Origin: a virus
IMG/VR virus record: IMGVR_UViG_3300008952_000138
Coordinates: 1-37,560 of that record
Reading direction: 5' to 3' (one strand)
DNA length: 37,560 bases
Position 1 is the first letter of the stretch; each line of letters opens with the position of its first letter. A program made the translations under genes and the position numbers. Below the pieces are notes generated by a model. It had not been told where the DNA came from. It worked only from the letters and a program-made list of their open reading frames with translations, and did not search any database. Positions 11,766 through 34,533 of the stretch are shown in pieces.

Positions 11766-12590
11766 TTATTGCAACAATACTCTTACGTCAGATACGACTA
11801 TCTTTGGAATAAACCATTCCAAACTCTCTATTTTTTTATCTAAGAATACTGGATTGGGTTGTTTCCAACCATCTTCCCCATATAATATAACCATCGCATT
11901 TACATCTATTGGTTGTATTGGCATGGTATAATTTGTGAATGGTTTGAATGTTGGAGACATTACACTTTTATTCTCATCACCATCTTCATTATAATGATGA
12001 AGTAGTCCTACAGCATGGCCAAACTCATGTTTTATTATGTGTTGAATGTCTGAATCTTCCATTCTCTTAGGTTCTAAATTTATCACTATCTCATTATCAT
12101 CTTTGATTTCTCCTAAATCTATCGTGTGTGGGGTGTTTATATTATATGTGAATATTACTATTTGTGAGTATTTATGTTTAGACCAAGAATGATCAAAATG
12201 AGTATATCCTAATGCTGATTTCCCTACCCTTGATAAATCATTGGTTTCCTCAAATGTTATTACAATATCACAATCTAAATAATCATGTACTTTCTTATCA
12301 ATATGTTCTTCCCATTCGTAAAGATATAATGGAATATACCAATCTCCACCTGTTGCCAAAGTCATTGTGTTTTCCCACTCTTTTATTCCTGTGAATACTG
12401 AATAAAGTTGGTATTGATTAAAATATTCTTCATCATATTCGGGTTCAAATATACAGGTTGTTGGGTTATCTGTAAATCTAATATTGATAGTTTTAAAATA
12501 ATCACCAAAGGCTTCTTGTATTGTAAAACCAAACATTAACCCGACCATAGTAAAAGCTAGTAAAAAAAGAAAAATGTATAGACCTTCCAT
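11766..12590 (-). CDS. Membrane-anchored or secreted metzincin protease
   Basis: The 274-residue protein begins with a hydrophobic segment (residues 4-23) that would act as signal peptide or membrane anchor. The catalytic signature HEFGHAVGLLHH (188-199) is a full HExxHxxGxxH zinc site, and SVMSPTF (209-215) supplies the Met-turn, so this is a matrixin-type metzincin. A CIFEP motif near residue 46 recalls M10-like proteases of Thaumarchaeota (from memory). The gene follows two holin-like genes within the structural operon, so a role in breaching the S-layer at lysis or entry is proposed. A TATA-like TTTATATAAA (12608-12617) lies just upstream. Confidence 0.85.
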   Translation of the reverse strand: MEGLYIFLFLLAFTMVGLMFGFTIQEAFGDYFKTINIRFTDNPTTCIFEPEYDEEYFNQYQLYSVFTGIKEWENTMTLATGGDWYIPLYLYEWEEHIDKKVHDYLDCDIVITFEETNDLSRVGKSALGYTHFDHSWSKHKYSQIVIFTYNINTPHTIDLGEIKDDNEIVINLEPKRMEDSDIQHIIKHEFGHAVGLLHHYNEDGDENKSVMSPTFKPFTNYTMPIQPIDVNAMVILYGEDGWKQPNPVFLDKKIESLEWFIPKIVVSDVRVLLQ

Positions 12591-20359: not shown

Positions 20360-20434
20360 TTTTCGAGATTTTTTCTTGGTTTTAAAAAGCAGGGGGCCAA
20401 TCCTATATATAAGTGTATCTGTCGATCAGTTTTT

Positions 20435-20474
20435 TTAGGCGTGGGTTGGCCGATTTAGGCATGAATCCGATCAA
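20435..20474 (+). repeat. Two 20-bp direct repeats, TTAGGCRTG type
   Basis: TTAGGCGTG at 20435 and TTAGGCATG at 20455 begin 20-bp units that end with GCCGAT and CCGATC. A partial third copy TTAGGCA is at 20511. The same units reappear at 24812-24851, on the other side of the amidoligase operon. Confidence 0.6.
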
Positions 20475-20552
20475 AATCAAATTCGTTTATATATGAAATA
20501 AACACTTATATTAGGCAAACATCTTCTGCGTCACGACGATCTAATTTTAGTG

Positions 20553-20580
20553 GTACGGTACTGTACGGTAAATTACGGTC
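20553..20580 (+). repeat. Three 10-bp tandem GTACGGTA repeats
   Basis: GTACGGTACT, GTACGGTAAA and TTACGGTCCG follow each other with exact 10-bp periodicity, i.e. one face of the helix. The unit equals the half-site of the terS palindrome. Confidence 0.55.
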
Positions 20581-20744
20581 CGGCCAGTTTCCAGGTATAT
20601 AACCTTTTTGGTGGCCCATCATATATAACCTTTACGGTTAAGTATTACTTAATTTGACAAAGTAAAAGTTAAATGAAAAAATCGCTGAATAGTTTATGAA
20701 TAGAATGTAAGTATGGAAAGTAATTTCATTCATTCATGAAAGTT

Positions 20745-20783
20745 AAAAAAAAATAGAGTGATTAGATTATTCCTTATCTAATC
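20745..20783 (-). terminator. Hairpin plus T-run terminator (minus strand)
   Basis: GATTAGAT (20760-20767) pairs with ATCTAATC (20776-20783) around an 8-nt loop. On the minus strand this 8-bp stem is followed after 6 nt by nine T (20753-20745), an intrinsic-terminator layout. Confidence 0.6.
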
Positions 20784-20850
20784 TGTATAGAGTTTCTAAC
20801 TCATTTAAGATCTTATTCATAGTCTCTATGATATATTGATCTGTTGTCAT
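20767..20850 (-). CDS. 27-residue micro-protein or small RNA
   Basis: A short frame (MTTDQYIIETMNKILNELET...) starts at ATG 20850, 26 nt downstream of a TATA-like GGTATAAG (20873-20880), and ends within the stem of an intrinsic terminator. The unit is thus complete: promoter, a transcript of about 110 nt, and terminator. The peptide is amphipathic-helical. It might equally be a non-coding RNA. Confidence 0.4.
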   Translation of the reverse strand: MTTDQYIIETMNKILNELETLYRLDKE

Positions 20851-20872
20851 GTTGTATTATTTCCAAGATTAT

Positions 20873-20880
20873 CTTATACC
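20873..20880 (-). promoter_or_regulatory. TATA box of minus-strand small transcript
   Basis: GGTATAAG on the minus strand is centred 26.5 nt before the ATG at 20850. Confidence 0.45.
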
Positions 20881-21031
20881 TTTTCGAGTGAAATTCTTTT
20901 GACTAATTGGTTAATATCAATTCAATCATAAGTTAAGTGATACTTAATTTCCTGGCAAATAATTATACTACTTTTCATCTTATTATTTGTATGATTTTAA
21001 TTATTAACTATTGATAACAATATAATATAGA

Positions 21032-21370
21032 ATGACAGATTATAATGATCGTATAATAATATCTGATGACATGGGAATATATCCAACTGGAGATTATACA
21101 CAATTTAAAAACAAATACTTAGAGATAATTAGAATTGAAAAATTCAATAGAAAAGATCAAATTGTAACTATTCCAGATAATGTTATTGAAAAATCAATCA
21201 TAACGTATATTCCTCAAGTATGGGTAAATGATCTAAATCAAGAGATTGATTGTTATAAAATAACTATACCAAATGGAGATAATTATTATGTAATAAGATC
21301 GGATTTTCCAGATACTAATAGAACAGAGAGAATAATCAGATTATGCTTAGGAGATATTAAAAATGATTAA
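21032..21370 (+). CDS. Hypothetical protein, first gene of amidoligase operon
   Basis: The 112-residue acidic protein has beta-rich segments (RIIISDDMGIYPTGDY, YLEIIRIEKF, YKITIPNGDNYYVIRSDF). It overlaps the next gene by 8 nt, showing it belongs to the amidoligase operon. Codon use is extremely AT-rich compared with the structural genes. No clear TATA box stands at the usual distance; a TTTTAATTATTAA tract lies about 31 nt upstream. No family recognised. Confidence 0.7.
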   Translation: MTDYNDRIIISDDMGIYPTGDYTQFKNKYLEIIRIEKFNRKDQIVTIPDNVIEKSIITYIPQVWVNDLNQEIDCYKITIPNGDNYYVIRSDFPDTNRTERIIRLCLGDIKND

Positions 21371-21806
21371 TCCAGATATTCAACTAAGTTTAGAACTTGA
21401 TCCAAAATATGACTATATCAAATTATATGCAAAATCTCCATTCATTGAATCATTCATGAAGAGTCAGATATTAGAAGAGGATCCCTACTATTACAAAGAA
21501 GACGATAAATTCTATAATTTAAGAGACAGCCATTTTAATTCAGAGTTTAGATATTATCTTAAAACCCTTGATTACTTAACTAGATTCATAGATAATGATG
21601 AAAGCGTAATTAATCTAAGTGTATTACGTCAAGTCGGTTTATCTGAAGGTATAACACAAATTTATCATCATGCTTATACTGATAAGGAGTTACAGCAATT
21701 TACCACAAAAACCCAGAATATACTAGATAAAATGACTCAAGCTATAATGTTCACTAAAACCCAAAGAAAAGCAGAATTTAAGATAAAATTGGAGTATAAA
21801 GAATAA
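21363..21806 (+). CDS. Hypothetical helical protein in amidoligase operon
   Basis: This 147-residue protein is rich in Tyr, Phe, Asp and Lys and mainly helical (YYLKTLDYLTRFI, LSVLRQVGLSEGITQIYHHAY, ILDKMTQAIMFTK). It overlaps the previous gene by 8 nt and shares its last base with the amidoligase start (TAATG), so the three are translationally coupled. It might be a substrate carrier or partner of the ligase, but nothing in the sequence proves that. Confidence 0.7.
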   Translation: MINPDIQLSLELDPKYDYIKLYAKSPFIESFMKSQILEEDPYYYKEDDKFYNLRDSHFNSEFRYYLKTLDYLTRFIDNDESVINLSVLRQVGLSEGITQIYHHAYTDKELQQFTTKTQNILDKMTQAIMFTKTQRKAEFKIKLEYKE

Positions 21807-22972
21807 TGTCTTTTCAAGAGTCTTTAGAATGGAATAGTTTAACAAGAGATATTGACTTTAATTCTAAGAAGAAATACACAATAAAAGACATTTATCAAAC
21901 ATTAGACGATTTAACGCAAATTATCAACCATGATATTTCAAATGATCAATCATATGATATGAATTATTTAAAAATGAAATATAATGACTTTAACGAATAT
22001 TCAAAAAACATACAAACTAATTTTATGATAAATGATTGTTTTAAATCTCTATTATTTCAAGTGAGAAATTTAAGAAAAAATACAAAGTTTAAACACATTG
22101 AATCATTTGGTTTTGAATTCGAGTCTATATTATCAACGGGCATAGAATATTTCTTAAATGATTATCATTCTTGTGATGATCAAGAATACATAGATTATAA
22201 AGAGATTTTTTCTCATTATGAAAATGAATGTAGTATTGAAGCCGAAGATCATCGATGTGATAATTACGATGATCGTTCTTGTGATTTTTGTATTTCTGAA
22301 GATGGCGACGAATGTAACGGTGATTGTTCACACTGTTTAAACGAATGTTCGTGTTATGAAGGTGAAAATTCAGAATGTGATCACATAGTAGAATTAATTA
22401 CAAAACCATTAGAGACAATTTCACAACTAGAGAAAAGCTTCGATATATTATATGATATATTTGGATTATCAGAGGTAAATCAATCAATGGGCAAACATAC
22501 AACAGTAAAATTAAGAAATTATCAGAGATATTGTAAACTAATGAATTTAGATTTAACAAATACGTTTAGTAATTTATTGAGGGTTTATGGTAAATTATAC
22601 AAAATAACTAGAGAGTCATATTTTACCCGTTTAAATCATGGGAATCACTTTTGTTATCCTAATGATTCAAATTTTAATTTTTCTGAACAATTACAACAGA
22701 CTAGAAAATCTGGAGATATTAGATATAAGCATTTTAATTTTAAACACAATTATCAACCATTACAAATTGAATTAAGAGTTTTACCCATGTTTTCAAGTAA
22801 ACAAACAGCTATTGATATTGAAAAATTAATGTTGTTATCTTTAGATTGGATATTAAACAACATAAAGACAAAAAAAGAAACGATTGTTTTAAAGTCAAAT
22901 ATTCCGAAATTCAGAGTTAAACCGTTAAACATAATTGGACAAAAACAAAAAATTGAGAGAGTGATTTTATAA
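21806..22972 (+). CDS. Amidoligase (COOH-NH2 ligase, GS-like fold)
   Basis: The 388-residue protein shows the motif order of the Amidoligase_2 family: GFEFE (102-106), VELITKPL (195-202), SMGKHTTV (227-234, equivalent of the family GxHv block), RNYQRY (237-242), and IELRVLP (331-337). These would form the ATP/Mg site of a glutamine-synthetase-like ligase that joins a carboxyl group to an amine. Between the first two motifs sits a segment with 11 Cys (C123-C191) that probably binds zinc. The stop overlaps the start of the glutamine amidotransferase gene by one base, suggesting that the two enzymes act together. The substrate is unknown. Confidence 0.82.
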   Translation: MSFQESLEWNSLTRDIDFNSKKKYTIKDIYQTLDDLTQIINHDISNDQSYDMNYLKMKYNDFNEYSKNIQTNFMINDCFKSLLFQVRNLRKNTKFKHIESFGFEFESILSTGIEYFLNDYHSCDDQEYIDYKEIFSHYENECSIEAEDHRCDNYDDRSCDFCISEDGDECNGDCSHCLNECSCYEGENSECDHIVELITKPLETISQLEKSFDILYDIFGLSEVNQSMGKHTTVKLRNYQRYCKLMNLDLTNTFSNLLRVYGKLYKITRESYFTRLNHGNHFCYPNDSNFNFSEQLQQTRKSGDIRYKHFNFKHNYQPLQIELRVLPMFSSKQTAIDIEKLMLLSLDWILNNIKTKKETIVLKSNIPKFRVKPLNIIGQKQKIERVIL

Positions 22973-23847
22973 TGTGTGTTATCTCTTTATACTCTGAGAA
23001 ATCAAAGAAAACTCCAGATTTAGAAGATCTTGAAAAAATGCAAAAAGTACACGGTCACGGGGGGGGCATAGCATGGATAAAAGACAAAAAAGTATTTTAC
23101 AAAAAAGGGATCAATTTAGACTCTAAATCAATGATTAAAATAATAAAAGATGAAAACATTAAACCACCATTTGTCATTCACTTTAGGATAAAATCAAGTG
23201 GCAATATTTGTAAAACAAACGAGTGTAATTTTAAACGAAATAATAAAAATCATAACTGTTCTTGTCATGGTTTTTTGATTGATCAAAACGGATTAAATGT
23301 TCAATCTGGATCAACTGATAAAGGGATCATTTTTCATAATGGAACATGCAATGAGGATTTATTGGATCTAGATATAAGAAATTTATGCTTAATGAAGAGA
23401 ATTAAAAAACCTGATTTTGTTAGTGATTCTCATAAAATAGCTTTTCTAGTTGCTCATTATGGAGATCAGTATATACTAGATTGGATCGAAAATACAGAGA
23501 AATTTGCAATTTTGACACCTAAAGGTTTAACATATTATAATAATTTCGAGAAGGATTCATCTAATAATTTAGTGTCTAATACATGGCATGACGACACTTA
23601 TGATTATTCAGTGTTTAATAATTCAAGATATTTTAAGAATAAATCAAAATGTGATAATAACAAAGATTGTTTAGATCATGATTACACGCTTAATGAATGT
23701 CTTATTGAGGATAATGGCAAATACTATAAAGTTGATGAACATGGCAATTATAGAGAATTAGACGCTTATGACGATGATTATTGGTATTATAATGATGATA
23801 TGATTTATGACAGATATTTAACAAATAGATATAGTAAAAATGATTAA
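22972..23847 (+). CDS. Class II glutamine amidotransferase (Ntn hydrolase)
   Basis: The 291-residue protein begins MC, so removal of Met exposes the catalytic N-terminal Cys. Further family motifs are HFRIKSSG (70-77; the Arg binds glutamine), CHGFLIDQNG (98-107; equivalent of the HPF block), IFHNGT (120-125; oxyanion hole) and SDSHKIAFL (151-159). It should hydrolyse glutamine to glutamate and ammonia. No synthase domain is attached, so the neighbouring amidoligase is the likely ammonia acceptor partner. A Cys cluster (C80, C85, C96, C98) is inserted, and the C-terminus is very Tyr/Asp-rich. A run of eight G at 23059-23066 encodes the Gly triplet. Confidence 0.88.
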   Translation: MCVISLYSEKSKKTPDLEDLEKMQKVHGHGGGIAWIKDKKVFYKKGINLDSKSMIKIIKDENIKPPFVIHFRIKSSGNICKTNECNFKRNNKNHNCSCHGFLIDQNGLNVQSGSTDKGIIFHNGTCNEDLLDLDIRNLCLMKRIKKPDFVSDSHKIAFLVAHYGDQYILDWIENTEKFAILTPKGLTYYNNFEKDSSNNLVSNTWHDDTYDYSVFNNSRYFKNKSKCDNNKDCLDHDYTLNECLIEDNGKYYKVDEHGNYRELDAYDDDYWYYNDDMIYDRYLTNRYSKND

Positions 23848-24025
23848 TTCAATATTTGATAAATTAGATCAAATGAAAAATTTATCCTTTCATGAAGGAA
23901 ATATTTCAAATAATCCAGAATTATATATTTTGATATCAAATACAAAGATTGATTTTGAAAATACGTTTAATCTAATGATTGAAATTATTATAGAGTTATC
24001 AAAAAGGAATATGAAAAATGAATAA
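23840..24025 (+). CDS. Hypothetical protein, 61 residues
   Basis: It overlaps the amidotransferase gene by 8 nt and ends 8 nt inside the next one. The product has a hydrophilic N-terminal half and a helical C-terminal half (FENTFNLMIEIIIELSKR). No family recognised; operon membership is its best support. Confidence 0.6.
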   Translation: MINSIFDKLDQMKNLSFHEGNISNNPELYILISNTKIDFENTFNLMIEIIIELSKRNMKNE

Positions 24026-24122
24026 TTTATGTAATTGTGATAATTGCAAAAGAGAAATTAAAAAAATTAGTGTTGTATATGTTTTTCAAACTTTAGAATA
24101 TGAATTAAGGAATAGTGATTAA
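24018..24122 (+). CDS. 34-residue CxC...C protein
   Basis: The ATG at 24018 overlaps the end of the previous gene. The peptide opens with a CNCDNC cluster (C5, C7, C10), followed by a helix-like stretch. The stop (TAA 24120-24122) overlaps the GTG of the next gene. Small, but bounded by tight overlaps on both sides. Confidence 0.5.
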   Translation: MNNLCNCDNCKREIKKISVVYVFQTLEYELRNSD

Positions 24123-24333
24123 ATTAGATGAATATGAGAGATATTTAAAATCTCAAGCTAAGCAGATAGATAAAGCAGAAGAGGCATTTTTTGAGGAATG
24201 TATAACACAATTATATTTTTTAAATCGTTGTGGTTTTGATATAGAAAAAATAGAAGATATGCTAAAAGAATCAGTAAATCAAGCGATTGATCAATTTTTA
24301 GAAGCTGATCACAAAGGAATATTTGATGATTAG
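24115..24333 (+). CDS. Hypothetical helical protein, 72 residues
   Basis: The frame starts at GTG 24115 within GTGATTAA. The product is acidic and helical throughout (YERYLKSQAKQIDKAEEAFFEE, IEKIEDMLKESVNQAIDQFLE) with two Cys. No family recognised. It is part of the amidoligase operon by overlaps on both sides. Confidence 0.6.
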   Translation: MIKLDEYERYLKSQAKQIDKAEEAFFEECITQLYFLNRCGFDIEKIEDMLKESVNQAIDQFLEADHKGIFDD

Positions 24334-24450: not shown

Positions 24451-24630
24451 AAGTCAACAGAAAACCCTATTTTAGCCTTGTTTTAACCAATAAAGGCTAT
24501 TTTAACCTCTAAATATGCCAGGAAGCCCATTTTAGCCTTATTTCCTGGTGAAAAGCCCAAAATAGCCTCCGTTGGGCCAAAGAAGCCCAAAATACGCCTG
24601 GATTGGCCAAAGAAGGTCAAAATGCCCTTT
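24451..24630 (+). repeat. Six 30-bp iterons
   Basis: Six contiguous imperfect 30-bp units share a core such as GCCCATTTTAGCC or GCCCAAAATAGCC at unit position 15-27. Cores begin at 24465, 24495, 24525, 24555, 24585 and 24615, so the period is exactly 30 bp. The first three have TTTT and the last three AAAA in the middle, i.e. the array switches orientation of an almost palindromic core. CCAGGAA/TTCCTGG (24518-24548) adds an inverted repeat around the third unit. An array of protein-binding iterons at a replication origin or control site is the best reading. Confidence 0.75.
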
Positions 24631-24851: not shown

Positions 24852-24979
24852 GGTGTGTGCCAGGCTTAATGCTTACTAGGGGTGTAGAAAATTTTTACTT
24901 TGTTACTAGGTAGGTAGAATTTTTTTCTTTAATTATTTTCCAAGTGTGTTTCTTCTTCCAGAATAACCACCCCCCCCTA

Positions 24980-26029
24980 CTAAATAATTTCAACTATACC
25001 CCCCACTCTCTCTTTGGCCAACTCTGTATATTCCTCACTAAGTTCTATTCCTATCCAATTCAATCCTAGTTTATCTGCTGCAAAGCCTGTAGTTCCTGCA
25101 CCAAAAAATGGGTCCAAGACTACACCATCAGGTTTTGGACAAGCACATTTCAGTATTTTTAATGGTAGATCGTATGGGAAAGTTGCAAAGTGGGCTTTAG
25201 CAAATGGTCGTGTATTTATTTCAAATATATCTCCAGGATTTTTACCTAATGGGTGGTTTGATGAACGACCATCTGGATAATAACCACCTGTTTGTTTATT
25301 TCTTACAAGTCCACTAGCAGATTGACCACCTACATTGGCCCATTTTCTATCTGCTGCCTGCTCGTCATAAAACTTATCAGTTCTATCCCTATGTAGTCTT
25401 TCTGTATTACAATTATTTTGATTAGGAACTGTTAAATCTGCATATTTTTCATTTATCTTTCTATTCTTAGGCTTTTTATATACTGTTACACATTCTTCTC
25501 TTACTGAATCCAAGTCAAAATAATACTTTCTTTTCTTTGCAAAGAAGAATACTGATTCATATTTTGTTGTGAAGCGGTCCTTCACTGAACTTGGCATAGA
25601 GTTATGCTTAAACCATATAACATGATTACGTGCTATCCAACCATTATCTATACAGTTAATATAGAATCTTTCAGGTATTCCAACCCTGCTTTTAGGCTTT
25701 AACATTTCAATTATCTTTGGCTTTTTATCAAATTCCCATGATCTTTTGTTTGTAGATACATCTGTTCCTGCGCCTTTACCACTTCCTGTGTATGTATCTC
25801 CAAGATTAACCCATACAGTTCCTGTATCTTTTACAACTCTTTTTAATTCTAACATAAGTAAGTCTAATTTGGCCAAATATTCTTGAAATGTTTCCTCTGC
25901 ACCCCATTGTTTATCATCTGGATATTGACGTAATGCCCAATATGGTGGACTAGTGATAACTGTGTCAATAGATAGGCTTGGTATTTCCTTAAGTCTTTCC
26001 ATTACATCTCCAATCATTATTCTTCTCAT
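24980..26029 (-). CDS. DNA methyltransferase, beta class (N4-C or N6-A)
   Basis: The 349-residue protein has the catalytic motif IV TSPPYW at residues 26-31 and the AdoMet-binding motif DPFFGAGTTG near 306-315, followed by IGIELSEEY. Motif IV before motif I is the beta-class order, and S/TSPPY favours N4-cytosine but does not exclude N6-adenine. The middle 200 residues hold the target recognition region (HVIWFKHNSMPSS, FFFAKKRKYYFDLDSV). No restriction enzyme gene is adjacent, so it probably protects viral DNA. It is the last gene of the minus-strand replication operon. The start overlaps a tiny membrane-peptide frame. Confidence 0.92.
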   Translation of the reverse strand: MRRIMIGDVMERLKEIPSLSIDTVITSPPYWALRQYPDDKQWGAEETFQEYLAKLDLLMLELKRVVKDTGTVWVNLGDTYTGSGKGAGTDVSTNKRSWEFDKKPKIIEMLKPKSRVGIPERFYINCIDNGWIARNHVIWFKHNSMPSSVKDRFTTKYESVFFFAKKRKYYFDLDSVREECVTVYKKPKNRKINEKYADLTVPNQNNCNTERLHRDRTDKFYDEQAADRKWANVGGQSASGLVRNKQTGGYYPDGRSSNHPLGKNPGDIFEINTRPFAKAHFATFPYDLPLKILKCACPKPDGVVLDPFFGAGTTGFAADKLGLNWIGIELSEEYTELAKERVGGIVEII

Positions 26030-32110: not shown

Positions 32111-32323
32111 TTATATCTTTGCAATATGATCATCTAGTCTTAAATCACATACCTTCTTGCCATTCCATCTACACGCAGGACACCTATCATTACCGTATTT
32201 TAAACTGCCCGAAGTACAACCCTTATGTTTAATTAATCTCCATTTACCTGTGTTCTTATGGTGTTCGTAATCCCAATTTAATCCTGCTTCTCCACAATAT
32301 TTACAGGTCTTATCATCTGCCAC
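32111..32323 (-). CDS. 70-residue zinc-finger protein
   Basis: Two zinc-type clusters are visible: CKYC with a later HH (residues 7-22), and CPAC with a C at GKKVC (about 48-59), plus H-K-G-C in between. The product is basic. It overlaps the adenine methyltransferase-like gene by 11 nt. DNA binding is likely. Confidence 0.6.
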   Translation of the reverse strand: MADDKTCKYCGEAGLNWDYEHHKNTGKWRLIKHKGCTSGSLKYGNDRCPACRWNGKKVCDLRLDDHIAKI

Positions 32324-32729
32324 GCCAAATCACTACCATGTATGCGTTTCGTGCCTGGTATTTAGTAGGTTGTTTATTTTTGTTAAACCGTATTCTGCCT
32401 TGTGGTTGAGCATGATATTCCACATGACCTTCTATATAATTATGCCAAAACTTACTGCTAACAGTATTTGCAGGAATTAGCATTAACACATTTATGTTGT
32501 TTCTTCTCCACTCGTTATATGCCTTTTCTACAAACTTGCCTGTTATACTATGTGGTGGGTTACACCAACTATCTTCTGACCAGGATTCTTCAAGTCCGTT
32601 AGTACAGAATCTCTCACATAAACTATTACCCTCATTTGCTGCAACATCTAGTTTTGGGAATACCCTGTATTTATAACATAGATCCCTAAACAATTCAGGT
32701 GGAGTTTCAAACTCATCATCAACTGACAT
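32313..32729 (-). CDS. Phage Dam-like N6-adenine methyltransferase
   Basis: From the ATG at 32729 the product has 138 residues. DEFETPPELFRDLCYKY and FPKLDVAANEGNSLC at the N-terminus and WCNPPHS (catalytic NPP motif) are characteristic of the phage DNA N-6-adenine-methyltransferase family (PF05869 type). His in place of the usual Tyr after NPP is uncommon. The conserved LMLIPANTVSSKFWH and GRIRFN segments also fit. It overlaps the MCM stop by 11 nt. It is the third methyltransferase of the genome. Confidence 0.85.
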   Translation of the reverse strand: MSVDDEFETPPELFRDLCYKYRVFPKLDVAANEGNSLCERFCTNGLEESWSEDSWCNPPHSITGKFVEKAYNEWRRNNINVLMLIPANTVSSKFWHNYIEGHVEYHAQPQGRIRFNKNKQPTKYQARNAYMVVIWRGR

Positions 32730-34533
32730 ATTTATACATTCCATCAGGTTGTACTAGCATAAAAGTTTGACTGTTGTTATAAGATATTACCCATCTCATA
32801 GCTCCGTGTGGTGTCTTAAACCATTTACTATCTGCTAACTTTTCACATAAAACTTCCAAGTCAAAATTATCTTCATTATTACAGTGGTTCTTTATCATCT
32901 GTATTACATACTCTTCCTTGTTGAAACTATCAGGTATCTTTGACATATCCATCTCTTTCTTTGTCTTCATACCAAAGGTTTCTAGTGAGTATTTATACAA
33001 TCTTATAGCTTCCTCAATATCTTGTTTCTCTATCTTATCACAAAATCTTAATTTAGCATGAGCTGTTGCTAATCTTATTAAACCTTCAAACCCCCTCATA
33101 TCTATGGATAATGAATCTTCTGTTTGCTCATATCCTCGTAGTTCAACAAAGAAATCTTCTAACATCTGTATGTTTTCAGGTTCTACTGTTGGATTAAATT
33201 TCCTTGCATAGTTGATTAGTTTCTTCATTTCTTCTATATCCAATACTTCACAATCATTTGTATTCTGTCTTACTTTAGCAATATGCCTTAATTTCTTAAT
33301 ATCAATATCTCTATCAGCTATATCTCTGATTAAGAATATTAAGTCAAATCTTGATAATAACGAATCAGGCATATTGATATTTTGTGATATAGATAAACCT
33401 GTGTTATATTTTGAAGTTCTTGGATTTGCTGCTGCAATAATAACTGTTTCAGCAGGAAGTGTGAGATTAGAACCAATCTTGTTTAGTGTTGCTGTTTGTT
33501 GTTCCATAACTTCATGCAACGCAGAACGATCAGTATCTGCCATTTTATCTATCTCATCTATACAAACACAACCACCTGAACAAAGTACTACAGGGCCAGC
33601 TTTGATAACATTACGACCATCTGCAAGTTTGTCAATCCCCATAACTAGCCCTGCTGCACTTGTGCTTCTCCCCAAAGCGTATGCACTTTTAGTTGTTACC
33701 TTAAGAACATACTTTAATAATCTACTCTTTGCAGTTGACGGATCTCCAACTAATAATGTATTTATGTCTCCCCTCAAGTCTCCAATCTTTTCTCCACTAA
33801 CTAAGCTAAGTATTAATGCTTCCTTCTCATTTTGTAATCCCCATATTTCAGGAGCAAATGAATCTGTTAATTTAACAATCCAATCTTCTTTCATCATTTC
33901 TTTATACTTTGTAATTTCCTCATCTGTTGGTAATGTATCTTTTTTCTCATTAACATCTGATAATTTCTCTACATCAAATATAATCCTGTTCCACCTTGAT
34001 TTGTTTTTCTTTACCGATGTAAATGTTCCACTTAGAATCTTATCTTGGCCAATATACACCTGTTTTGTTAAATCTCCTGTTATGACACTCTCCATTGTCA
34101 TAGGTGTCATGTGTTTTGCTTCTCCAAAAGGTTCTTGTATAATCAATGATCTGATTAATTTGACCTTACAGGCAGATTCTTCTCGTTTCATCTTGACAGA
34201 ACAATCTTGACATTTAGGAGCTTCAGGCACTTCTCTATTATCATCAGCTTTAAACGTAAGAATAGAATTACATATACGACATTGATATGTTACAACTTCA
34301 TCAAAAGTTTCCAAGTCTCCCCTAGCAATTATTCTTACTAGCATAGTTCCTTGCTTATTATGCCATTCTTCATTATAATCATTCATCTTTAGACTTATCG
34401 GATCAAACACCTTTTCATGATCCCATTCATCTGCAACTGATATTATATTATGTTTATCAATTTTACAACTTAGTAACATTTCTTTATTATTTCCAATAAA
34501 GTGTTTTCCACAAGTTTCACACATTCTGTGCAT
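32719..34533 (-). CDS. mcm: MCM replicative helicase
   Basis: The 604-residue protein is an archaeal-type MCM. The N-terminal domain has a zinc ribbon (C85, C88, C108, C111) and an extra Cys-containing start (CETCGKHF). The AAA+ domain has Walker A GDPSTAKS (263-270), Walker B CIDEIDK (324-330), sensor 1 at N370 (AAANP) and the arginine finger in SLLSRFD (R395). A C-terminal winged-helix-like tail follows. Viral MCMs are typical of archaeal viruses and replace or recruit the host helicase at the origin. No primase or polymerase is encoded, so host proteins must complete the replisome. Confidence 0.95.
   Translation of the reverse strand: MHRMCETCGKHFIGNNKEMLLSCKIDKHNIISVADEWDHEKVFDPISLKMNDYNEEWHNKQGTMLVRIIARGDLETFDEVVTYQCRICNSILTFKADDNREVPEAPKCQDCSVKMKREESACKVKLIRSLIIQEPFGEAKHMTPMTMESVITGDLTKQVYIGQDKILSGTFTSVKKNKSRWNRIIFDVEKLSDVNEKKDTLPTDEEITKYKEMMKEDWIVKLTDSFAPEIWGLQNEKEALILSLVSGEKIGDLRGDINTLLVGDPSTAKSRLLKYVLKVTTKSAYALGRSTSAAGLVMGIDKLADGRNVIKAGPVVLCSGGCVCIDEIDKMADTDRSALHEVMEQQTATLNKIGSNLTLPAETVIIAAANPRTSKYNTGLSISQNINMPDSLLSRFDLIFLIRDIADRDIDIKKLRHIAKVRQNTNDCEVLDIEEMKKLINYARKFNPTVEPENIQMLEDFFVELRGYEQTEDSLSIDMRGFEGLIRLATAHAKLRFCDKIEKQDIEEAIRLYKYSLETFGMKTKKEMDMSKIPDSFNKEEYVIQMIKNHCNNEDNFDLEVLCEKLADSKWFKTPHGAMRWVISYNNSQTFMLVQPDGMYKYVS

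Follow-up and report, generated by a model that had tools for sequence, protein, structure and literature searches.

A predicted amidoligase-glutamine amidotransferase pair with a probable third component in a virus very probably infecting thaumarchaea

Genes for an amidoligase and a glutamine amidotransferase (GATase) occur together in UFV-P2 and other LUZ24-like phages (PMC3890496), in phage tf (PMC3517423) and in OM43 phages (PMC10580990), and a peptidoglycan modification cassette has been proposed for Pseudoalteromonas phage PSA-HP1 (PMC5498523). Several of the bacterial-phage papers credit the proposal to Iyer and co-workers. Since that sequence-based proposal, the usual guess at the pair's function in phages has been a change to peptidoglycan and superinfection exclusion; in the literature searched, biochemistry of the pair was found for no virus. 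We also located the pair in bacterial-phage loci L002, L060, L061 and L062. The pair itself is not new, but an established recurring module of bacterial phages. Neither amidoligase nor amidotransferase is mentioned in the papers on a thaumarchaeal provirus, viruses of soil ammonia oxidisers and archaeal proviruses that we consulted (PMC6563490, PMC9859776, PMC11849493, PMC11705971). The archaeal occurrence of the pair, and the additional gene described below (X), appear to be unreported in the open literature, subscription papers lying outside the search.

We analysed a stretch of 37,560 nt (the window), positions 1 to 37,560 of IMG/VR record IMGVR_UViG_3300008952_000138. Of 50,697 phage records, just one matched its terminase (TerL), that of the Nitrososphaera viennensis provirus Pro-Nvie1 (34%, E 1e-66), and the window's MCM helicase matches archaeal viruses only; judged by these sequences, the window very probably belongs to a thaumarchaeal head-tailed virus. 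The thaumarchaeal host assumed in an earlier note on this DNA is well supported, because the only relative of the terminase is Pro-Nvie1. Pro-Nvie1 itself, when searched, contained no amidoligase, and scans of genome contigs with the terminase returned no provirus. Thaumarchaea have no peptidoglycan. An Rfam search of the window found no RNA family. Elsewhere in the window, a matrixin-like metallopeptidase (PF00413, E 1.7e-7) is encoded among the structural genes, with 66% identity to its L005 counterpart.

The window carries the same two families, in the same ligase-then-GATase order, as the LUZ24-like phage UFV-P2, the OM43 phages MEP401/402, Arthrobacter phage Ottawa and phage C75C1. The bacterial-phage genes are adjacent or a few small genes apart and, as in the window, lie outside the structural block. 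The window differs from them in coming from an archaeal virus, in a divergence so great that only profiles detect the relationship, in the one-base overlap of the two genes and in the presence of X. Unlike the bacterial-phage systems, the window's cassette genes of at least 61 aa, in a virus whose host lacks peptidoglycan, had no Pfam or PHROGs match to an ATP-grasp enzyme, a PF14395 ligase or a cyclotransferase, and the other window genes tested gave none either. The combination of a class II glutaminase with a GS-like ligase is also unlike MurT-GatD, where GatD belongs to the class I glutaminases and MurT to the Mur ligases. The MurT-GatD system of Staphylococcus aureus likewise uses two proteins for a glutamine-fed carboxylate amidation (PMC3267633, PMC5871853). 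The podoviral peptidoglycan cassette (PSA-HP1, RIO-1 and phiEco32; PMC5498523) shares the amidoligase and the glutamine amidotransferase, but it comprises two amidoligases, an ATP-grasp enzyme and a gamma-glutamyl cyclotransferase, whereas the window has the minimal pair plus X. The phage CmoA-CmoX-CmoY system, in which cytosine is carboxymethylated and amide ligation takes place (PMC12783734), resembles the predicted pair in that a phage enzyme forms an amide with ATP. It offers a precedent, because one group of CmoY-related phage ligases includes a domain that hydrolyses glutamine. CmoY, however, is asparagine-synthetase-like, and the virus group that we searched shows no CmoX-type C5 methylase.

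The amidoligase stop TAA and the GATase ATG have one base in common (TAATG), and the junction between X and the amidoligase gene is also a TAATG overlap, a point that the earlier note had left unstressed. Because the overlap recurs at both junctions, X, the amidoligase and the GATase form a translationally coupled row of three (Table 1). The region is AT-rich, with 25.9% GC in the operon compared to 33.1% window-wide. The earlier note had placed the pair, with its one-base overlap, exactly where both open reading frames (ORFs) are found, and it spoke of six further small genes: six same-strand short ORFs besides the pair can be read between 21032 and about 24400 (112, 147, 61, ~34, 72 and ~26 aa), but those of ~34 and ~26 aa are putative, read from the sequence, and unproven. 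No family match was found for the 112-aa gene, while the 72-aa gene has a weak likeness (blastp, E 9e-4) to the 127-aa gene downstream of the pair in L042. The gene that follows the GATase is homologous between L014 and L005 (35% identity, E 2e-14), and the window and L042 have a different small gene in its place. The gene-poor stretch 5' of the operon contains short direct and inverted repeats and is possibly a promoter or origin region. On the other side, two sets of ~30-nt tandem repeats, with an inverted repeat nearby, occupy the non-coding stretch between the cassette and a convergent methylase gene.

Table 1. Positions of the features discussed, in the window and in the related or compared loci.
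Feature	Record	Positions	Strand	Length	Remarks
Matrixin-like metallopeptidase gene	window	11766-12590	-		
Stretch without clear genes	window	20360-21031		~670 bp	5' of operon
112-aa gene	window	21032-21370	+	112 aa	operon membership uncertain; 5' of X; 8-base overlap with X
Gene X	window	21363-21806	+	147 aa	probable third component; directly 5' of amidoligase gene
Amidoligase gene	window	21806-22972	+	388 aa	predicted GS-like COOH-NH2 ligase, Amidoligase_2 type
Motif 1, FGFEFES (E104 and E106)	window	22106-22126	+		both Glu invariant in seven-row alignment
Cys-rich insertion	window	22232-22387	+		between D/E-x-S and E-(L/I)-(T/S)-x-P motifs
Remaining motifs	window	22391-22777	+		E196, N225..H231, R275-L276, R306-Y307..N311, E322-L-R324
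GATase gene	window	22972-23847	+	291 aa	predicted stand-alone class II (Ntn) glutamine amidotransferase
C-terminal CDNNKDCLDHDYTLNEC motif	window	23650-23700	+		outside Ntn domain
61-aa gene	window	23840-24025	+	61 aa	operon membership uncertain; overlaps GATase stop; ORF only
72-aa gene	window	24115-24333	+	72 aa	GTG start; weak likeness to gene 3' of GATase in L042
Inverted repeat	window	24468-24503 / 24559-24594			
Tandem repeat	window	24553-24623			2.4 copies
Tandem repeat	window	24873-24930			2 copies
DNA methylase-like gene	window	24980-26029			
DNA methylase-like gene	window	32313-32744			
X-like gene	L005	2937-3515	-		same position as X
X-like gene	L014	1238-1693	+		same position as X
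Gene after GATase	L014	3188-3457			
Gene after GATase	L005	575-937			
Mom-family gene	L005	4420-5019	-		
Amidoligase gene	L042	3504-4913			
GATase with C-terminal cyclotransferase-like domain	L060	4001-4897			bacterial phage
GATase with C-terminal cyclotransferase-like domain	L064	4001-5218			bacterial phage

The first enzyme of the pair is a predicted divergent GS-like amidoligase of the Amidoligase_2 (PF12224) type. The window's proteins taken alone gave no significant match in Pfam, PHROGs or NCBIfam, and the family assignment is based on orthologues that occupy the corresponding locus in related viruses. The L014 orthologue matches PF12224 (32.4 bits, with a cut-off of 22), and one of the seven members of the archaeal-virus amidoligase alignment matches the phrog_2443 amidoligase (6e-7). 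In profile-profile comparisons, where cross-family controls stayed at or below 0.3%, the archaeal amidoligase set aligned to the bacterial-phage amidoligases with P 96.5% (E 9e-10). The seven-row profile aligned to the phage C75C1 amidoligase with P 94% (E 1e-7). Neither window enzyme found relatives when used as a single query against viral contigs, nor did tblastn of the window amidoligase against named phages, and PDB sequences searched with the GATase, ligase and X profiles gave no relevant match.

The motifs of the amidoligase family are present (GxExE, D-x-S, E-l-[ST]-x-P, N-x-S..H, R-L, RY..N and [IV]E-x-R). Eight residues are invariant over all seven rows (E104, E106, S143, E196, N225, H231, R275 and L276), and R306-Y307, N311, E322 and R324 are invariant in every row extending that far; E104 and E106 are probable metal ligands. 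The window's copy deviates at two positions: the Asp of D-x-S is replaced by Glu (ECS instead of DGS), and GxHxH has Thr in place of its second His. Of the 56 residues in its Cys-rich insertion, which runs from ENECSIE (residue 139) to residue 194, 10 are Cys, compared to a background of 1.1%; comparable insertions occur in L014, L012 and L042, L005 is without one, and a metal site is possible. The L042 amidoligase carries a very large Cys-rich insertion between two catalytic motifs, with roughly 30 Cys, which is far longer than that of the window.

The earlier note had suggested structure prediction, and the modelled ligase has a fold akin to GS. The AlphaFold2 model, built from the seven rows, is weak overall and of modest confidence (pLDDT 53.9, pTM 0.60). 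Its named top matches in BFVD are mostly viral amidoligases, the best eight at probability 0.90-1.0, and all 50 of the matches listed by VIA-align belong to the GS or GCS superfamily. The top score is with a glutamine synthetase (Z 9.7, 3.6 A over 180 residues), and the glutamate-cysteine ligase YbdK reaches Z 8.4, at sequence identities to the two of 9-14%; the window protein differs in its Cys-rich insertion and a long N-terminal extension. A plain Foldseek search of the model against the PDB returned nothing below E 0.12. The predicted amidoligase structure resembles the GS/GCS fold.

The second enzyme is a predicted stand-alone class II (Ntn) GATase. Compared directly to Pfam, the window protein has a weak GATase_4 match (E 0.046); profile against profile, the archaeal GATase set aligned to the bacterial-phage GATases with P 99.4% (E 1.8e-21). 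The archaeal profile also finds phage GATases at 1e-16 to 1e-4, including those of a Christensenellales phage (1e-16), a Bifidobacterium phage (9e-14) and phage C75C1 (5e-9), and the Bifidobacterium phage GATases match GATase_4 above the cut-off. The motifs in the window are the nucleophile Cys2, H70-F-R72, C98-H99, H122-N123-G124 and S151-D152; the Cys directly after Met, H-x-R, H-N-G and S-D are kept in all five archaeal-virus GATases. Within the C-terminal CDNNKDCLDHDYTLNEC motif, HDYTLNEC is identical in L005, and L014, L012 and L042 do not keep the motif in this form; it is possibly a Zn site or a docking tail. The families named in the earlier note, a GS-like ligase and a stand-alone Ntn glutaminase, agree with these profile matches, and the catalytic residues, whose loss in homologues it had named as a refutation, are kept in the alignments of both proteins.

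X-like genes are found at the same position in L005 and L014, while the amidoligases of L042 and L012 carry a C-terminal extension. About 40 residues of the separate X (window, L005 and L014) align with this extension, centred on a PNLxxL...G...Y stretch; the hhalign score is 37.0, whereas 60 shuffles averaged 12 and peaked at 19. The X profile matches cassette-bearing loci only. The evidence is good but not final that X is homologous to the extension through a fusion of neighbouring genes, as the alignment suggests, and X is a probable third component because, in L042 and L012, the amidoligase includes its homologue as a fused domain. A secretion-chaperone fold was considered for X and rejected (model pLDDT 51.5; best VIA Z 6.1 and 5.7, below a meaningful level). 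The earlier note had missed that the pair is a known bacterial-phage module and that X is probably a third component.

Looking for the pair in other viral contigs, as the earlier note proposed, did find it. A terminase search yielded 54 related viral contigs, and the two genes lie side by side in five diverged lineages: the window, L005 (including L003, and L004, which is cut at its contig end), L012 (including L013, which is cut), L014 and L042. These are all five of the lineages whose contigs reach the locus. In the records searched, which may be fragments, the amidoligase and GATase are both present or both absent, barring contigs cut within the cassette. The pairing is not due to chance, because homologues of both proteins adjoin at the corresponding site in four further diverged lineages. 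GATase and fused-ligase queries for additional relatives of the cassette found no further loci.

Between lineages, identities are 21-31% for the ligase and 24-42% for the GATase, compared to 56-93% for the terminase; the window and L005 have terminases that are 93% identical and amidoligases that are 26% identical. Ligase and GATase pairwise identities correlate with each other (r = 0.70, a value reached in 4 of 120 label permutations of the five taxa), while their correlation with TerL identity is about 0.1. Consequently, the pair seems to be exchanged as a unit. In close pairs, dN is low relative to dS for the amidoligase (0.12 and 0.41, L012/L013) and for the glutaminase (0.015 and 0.23, L003/L005), indicating purifying selection on function.

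We judge the chances evenly balanced that the X-amidoligase-GATase cassette encodes a glutamine-dependent amidating enzyme. The sequence comparisons above show to which families the enzymes belong and that the three genes go together; the coupling of the active sites, the chemistry of the window's copy and its target we infer. Met1 of the GATase would be removed, and Cys2 would then hydrolyse glutamine. The GS-fold ligase would use ATP to turn a carboxylate into an acyl phosphate, which the released ammonia would attack to give a primary amide. Because the pair's genes are coupled and co-inherited, the ammonia could be channelled within a GATase-ligase complex. X would most likely bind or present the substrate, and so act in substrate choice. 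The substrate would most likely be a macromolecule altered at an early stage of infection: a protein of the host or the virus, or an S-layer glycan bearing carboxylates. The retained active sites, the joint inheritance and co-divergence of the pair, the fusion of X in two relatives, purifying selection and the occurrence of the same pair in unrelated bacterial phages support amidation. Against it count the two motif substitutions in the window's ligase, the weakness of the ligase model, the shortness of the X homology (about 40 residues) and the bacterial phages whose ligase has no GATase nearby. Nothing in the analysis backed the tie to host ammonia oxidation drawn in the earlier note; every cell carries out glutamine-fed amidation.

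A different division of labour is unlikely, though it has several points in its favour: the ligase would join an amino acid or other amine to a carboxylate, making a peptide-like tag or product, and the GATase would act separately as a gamma-glutamyl amidase or a supplier, in line with how the bacterial-phage cassettes have been read in print. Bacterial-phage GATases of this type are fused to a gamma-glutamyl cyclotransferase-like domain (L060 and L064) or lie near one (L062), which suggests gamma-glutamyl chemistry, and the GATase of such a cassette has been placed among degradation genes (PMC5498523). Some phages carry the ligase with no GATase nearby, such as bacterial phage locus L059 with no annotated GATase within 3.5 kb; therefore, the ligase can act alone or with another amine. 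However, the tested cassette genes include no cyclotransferase, ATP-grasp enzyme or second ligase, the pair was never seen split in the virus group, and both proteins co-diverge.

Amidation of carboxylates on the S-layer or on S-layer glycans to block later infections is a narrower form of the amidation explanation, and in that specific form it is improbable. It would be the archaeal equivalent of the superinfection exclusion proposed for bacterial phages. The N-glycans of archaea can contain uronic acids in amidated or amide-linked form, which counts in its favour, and a hexapeptide-repeat transferase gene lies near the pair in L014. Neither enzyme, however, has an evident export feature on informal inspection, so the enzymes would need to act on intracellular precursors, and no glycan gene is constantly found beside the pair. 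Also in its favour, a surface change has been proposed for phiEco32-type cassettes in work cited by PMC10580990, PMC5498523 and PMC11318856.

Hypermodification of DNA, with the pair amidating a base that carries a carboxylate in the viral genome, as proposed for ligases that have a glutaminase domain and lie beside the phage cytosine carboxymethyltransferase CmoX, is very unlikely: phage amide ligation on carboxymethylcytosine has been shown and glutamine-fed versions predicted (PMC12783734), the window has DNA methylase-like genes, and its close relative L005, a tailed virus of thaumarchaeal type, has a gene for a DNA-modification protein of the Mom family ~1.5 kb away from the pair (PF25680, E 4e-43; also in the L004 record), but PF00145 (C5-cytosine methylases of the CmoX type) is absent from all 13 records searched, window included, some of which may be fragments, Mom occurs in one pair-bearing lineage only, PF01555 methylases are found both with and without the pair, and CmoY ligases are not GS-like. 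The evidence does not support DNA modification along the carboxymethylcytosine route known from phages. As partners of the pair, we rejected both Mom-type DNA modification in general, since Mom is confined to a single lineage, and a CmoX-like C5 methylase, since the 13 records hold none.

Peptidoglycan modification cannot cover the archaeal case, because thaumarchaea are without peptidoglycan. The presence of a selected pair with an extra component in viruses of peptidoglycan-free archaea argues that the peptidoglycan guess is not the whole story. The cassette is a variant of the bacterial-phage module in viruses of a new host domain, and X is likely its third part. Its compact archaeal form, two enzymes plus X, would make reconstitution and label transfer simpler than with the larger podoviral cassettes. 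The archaeal occurrence points to a target or a chemistry common to both host domains. Returning to glutamine-dependent amidation, we tentatively suggest, at somewhat less than an even chance, that viruses of ammonia-oxidising archaea may change a host or virion macromolecule by a three-part, glutamine-fed amidation, so that the widespread phage pair would have one function in bacterial and archaeal hosts alike, independently of peptidoglycan.
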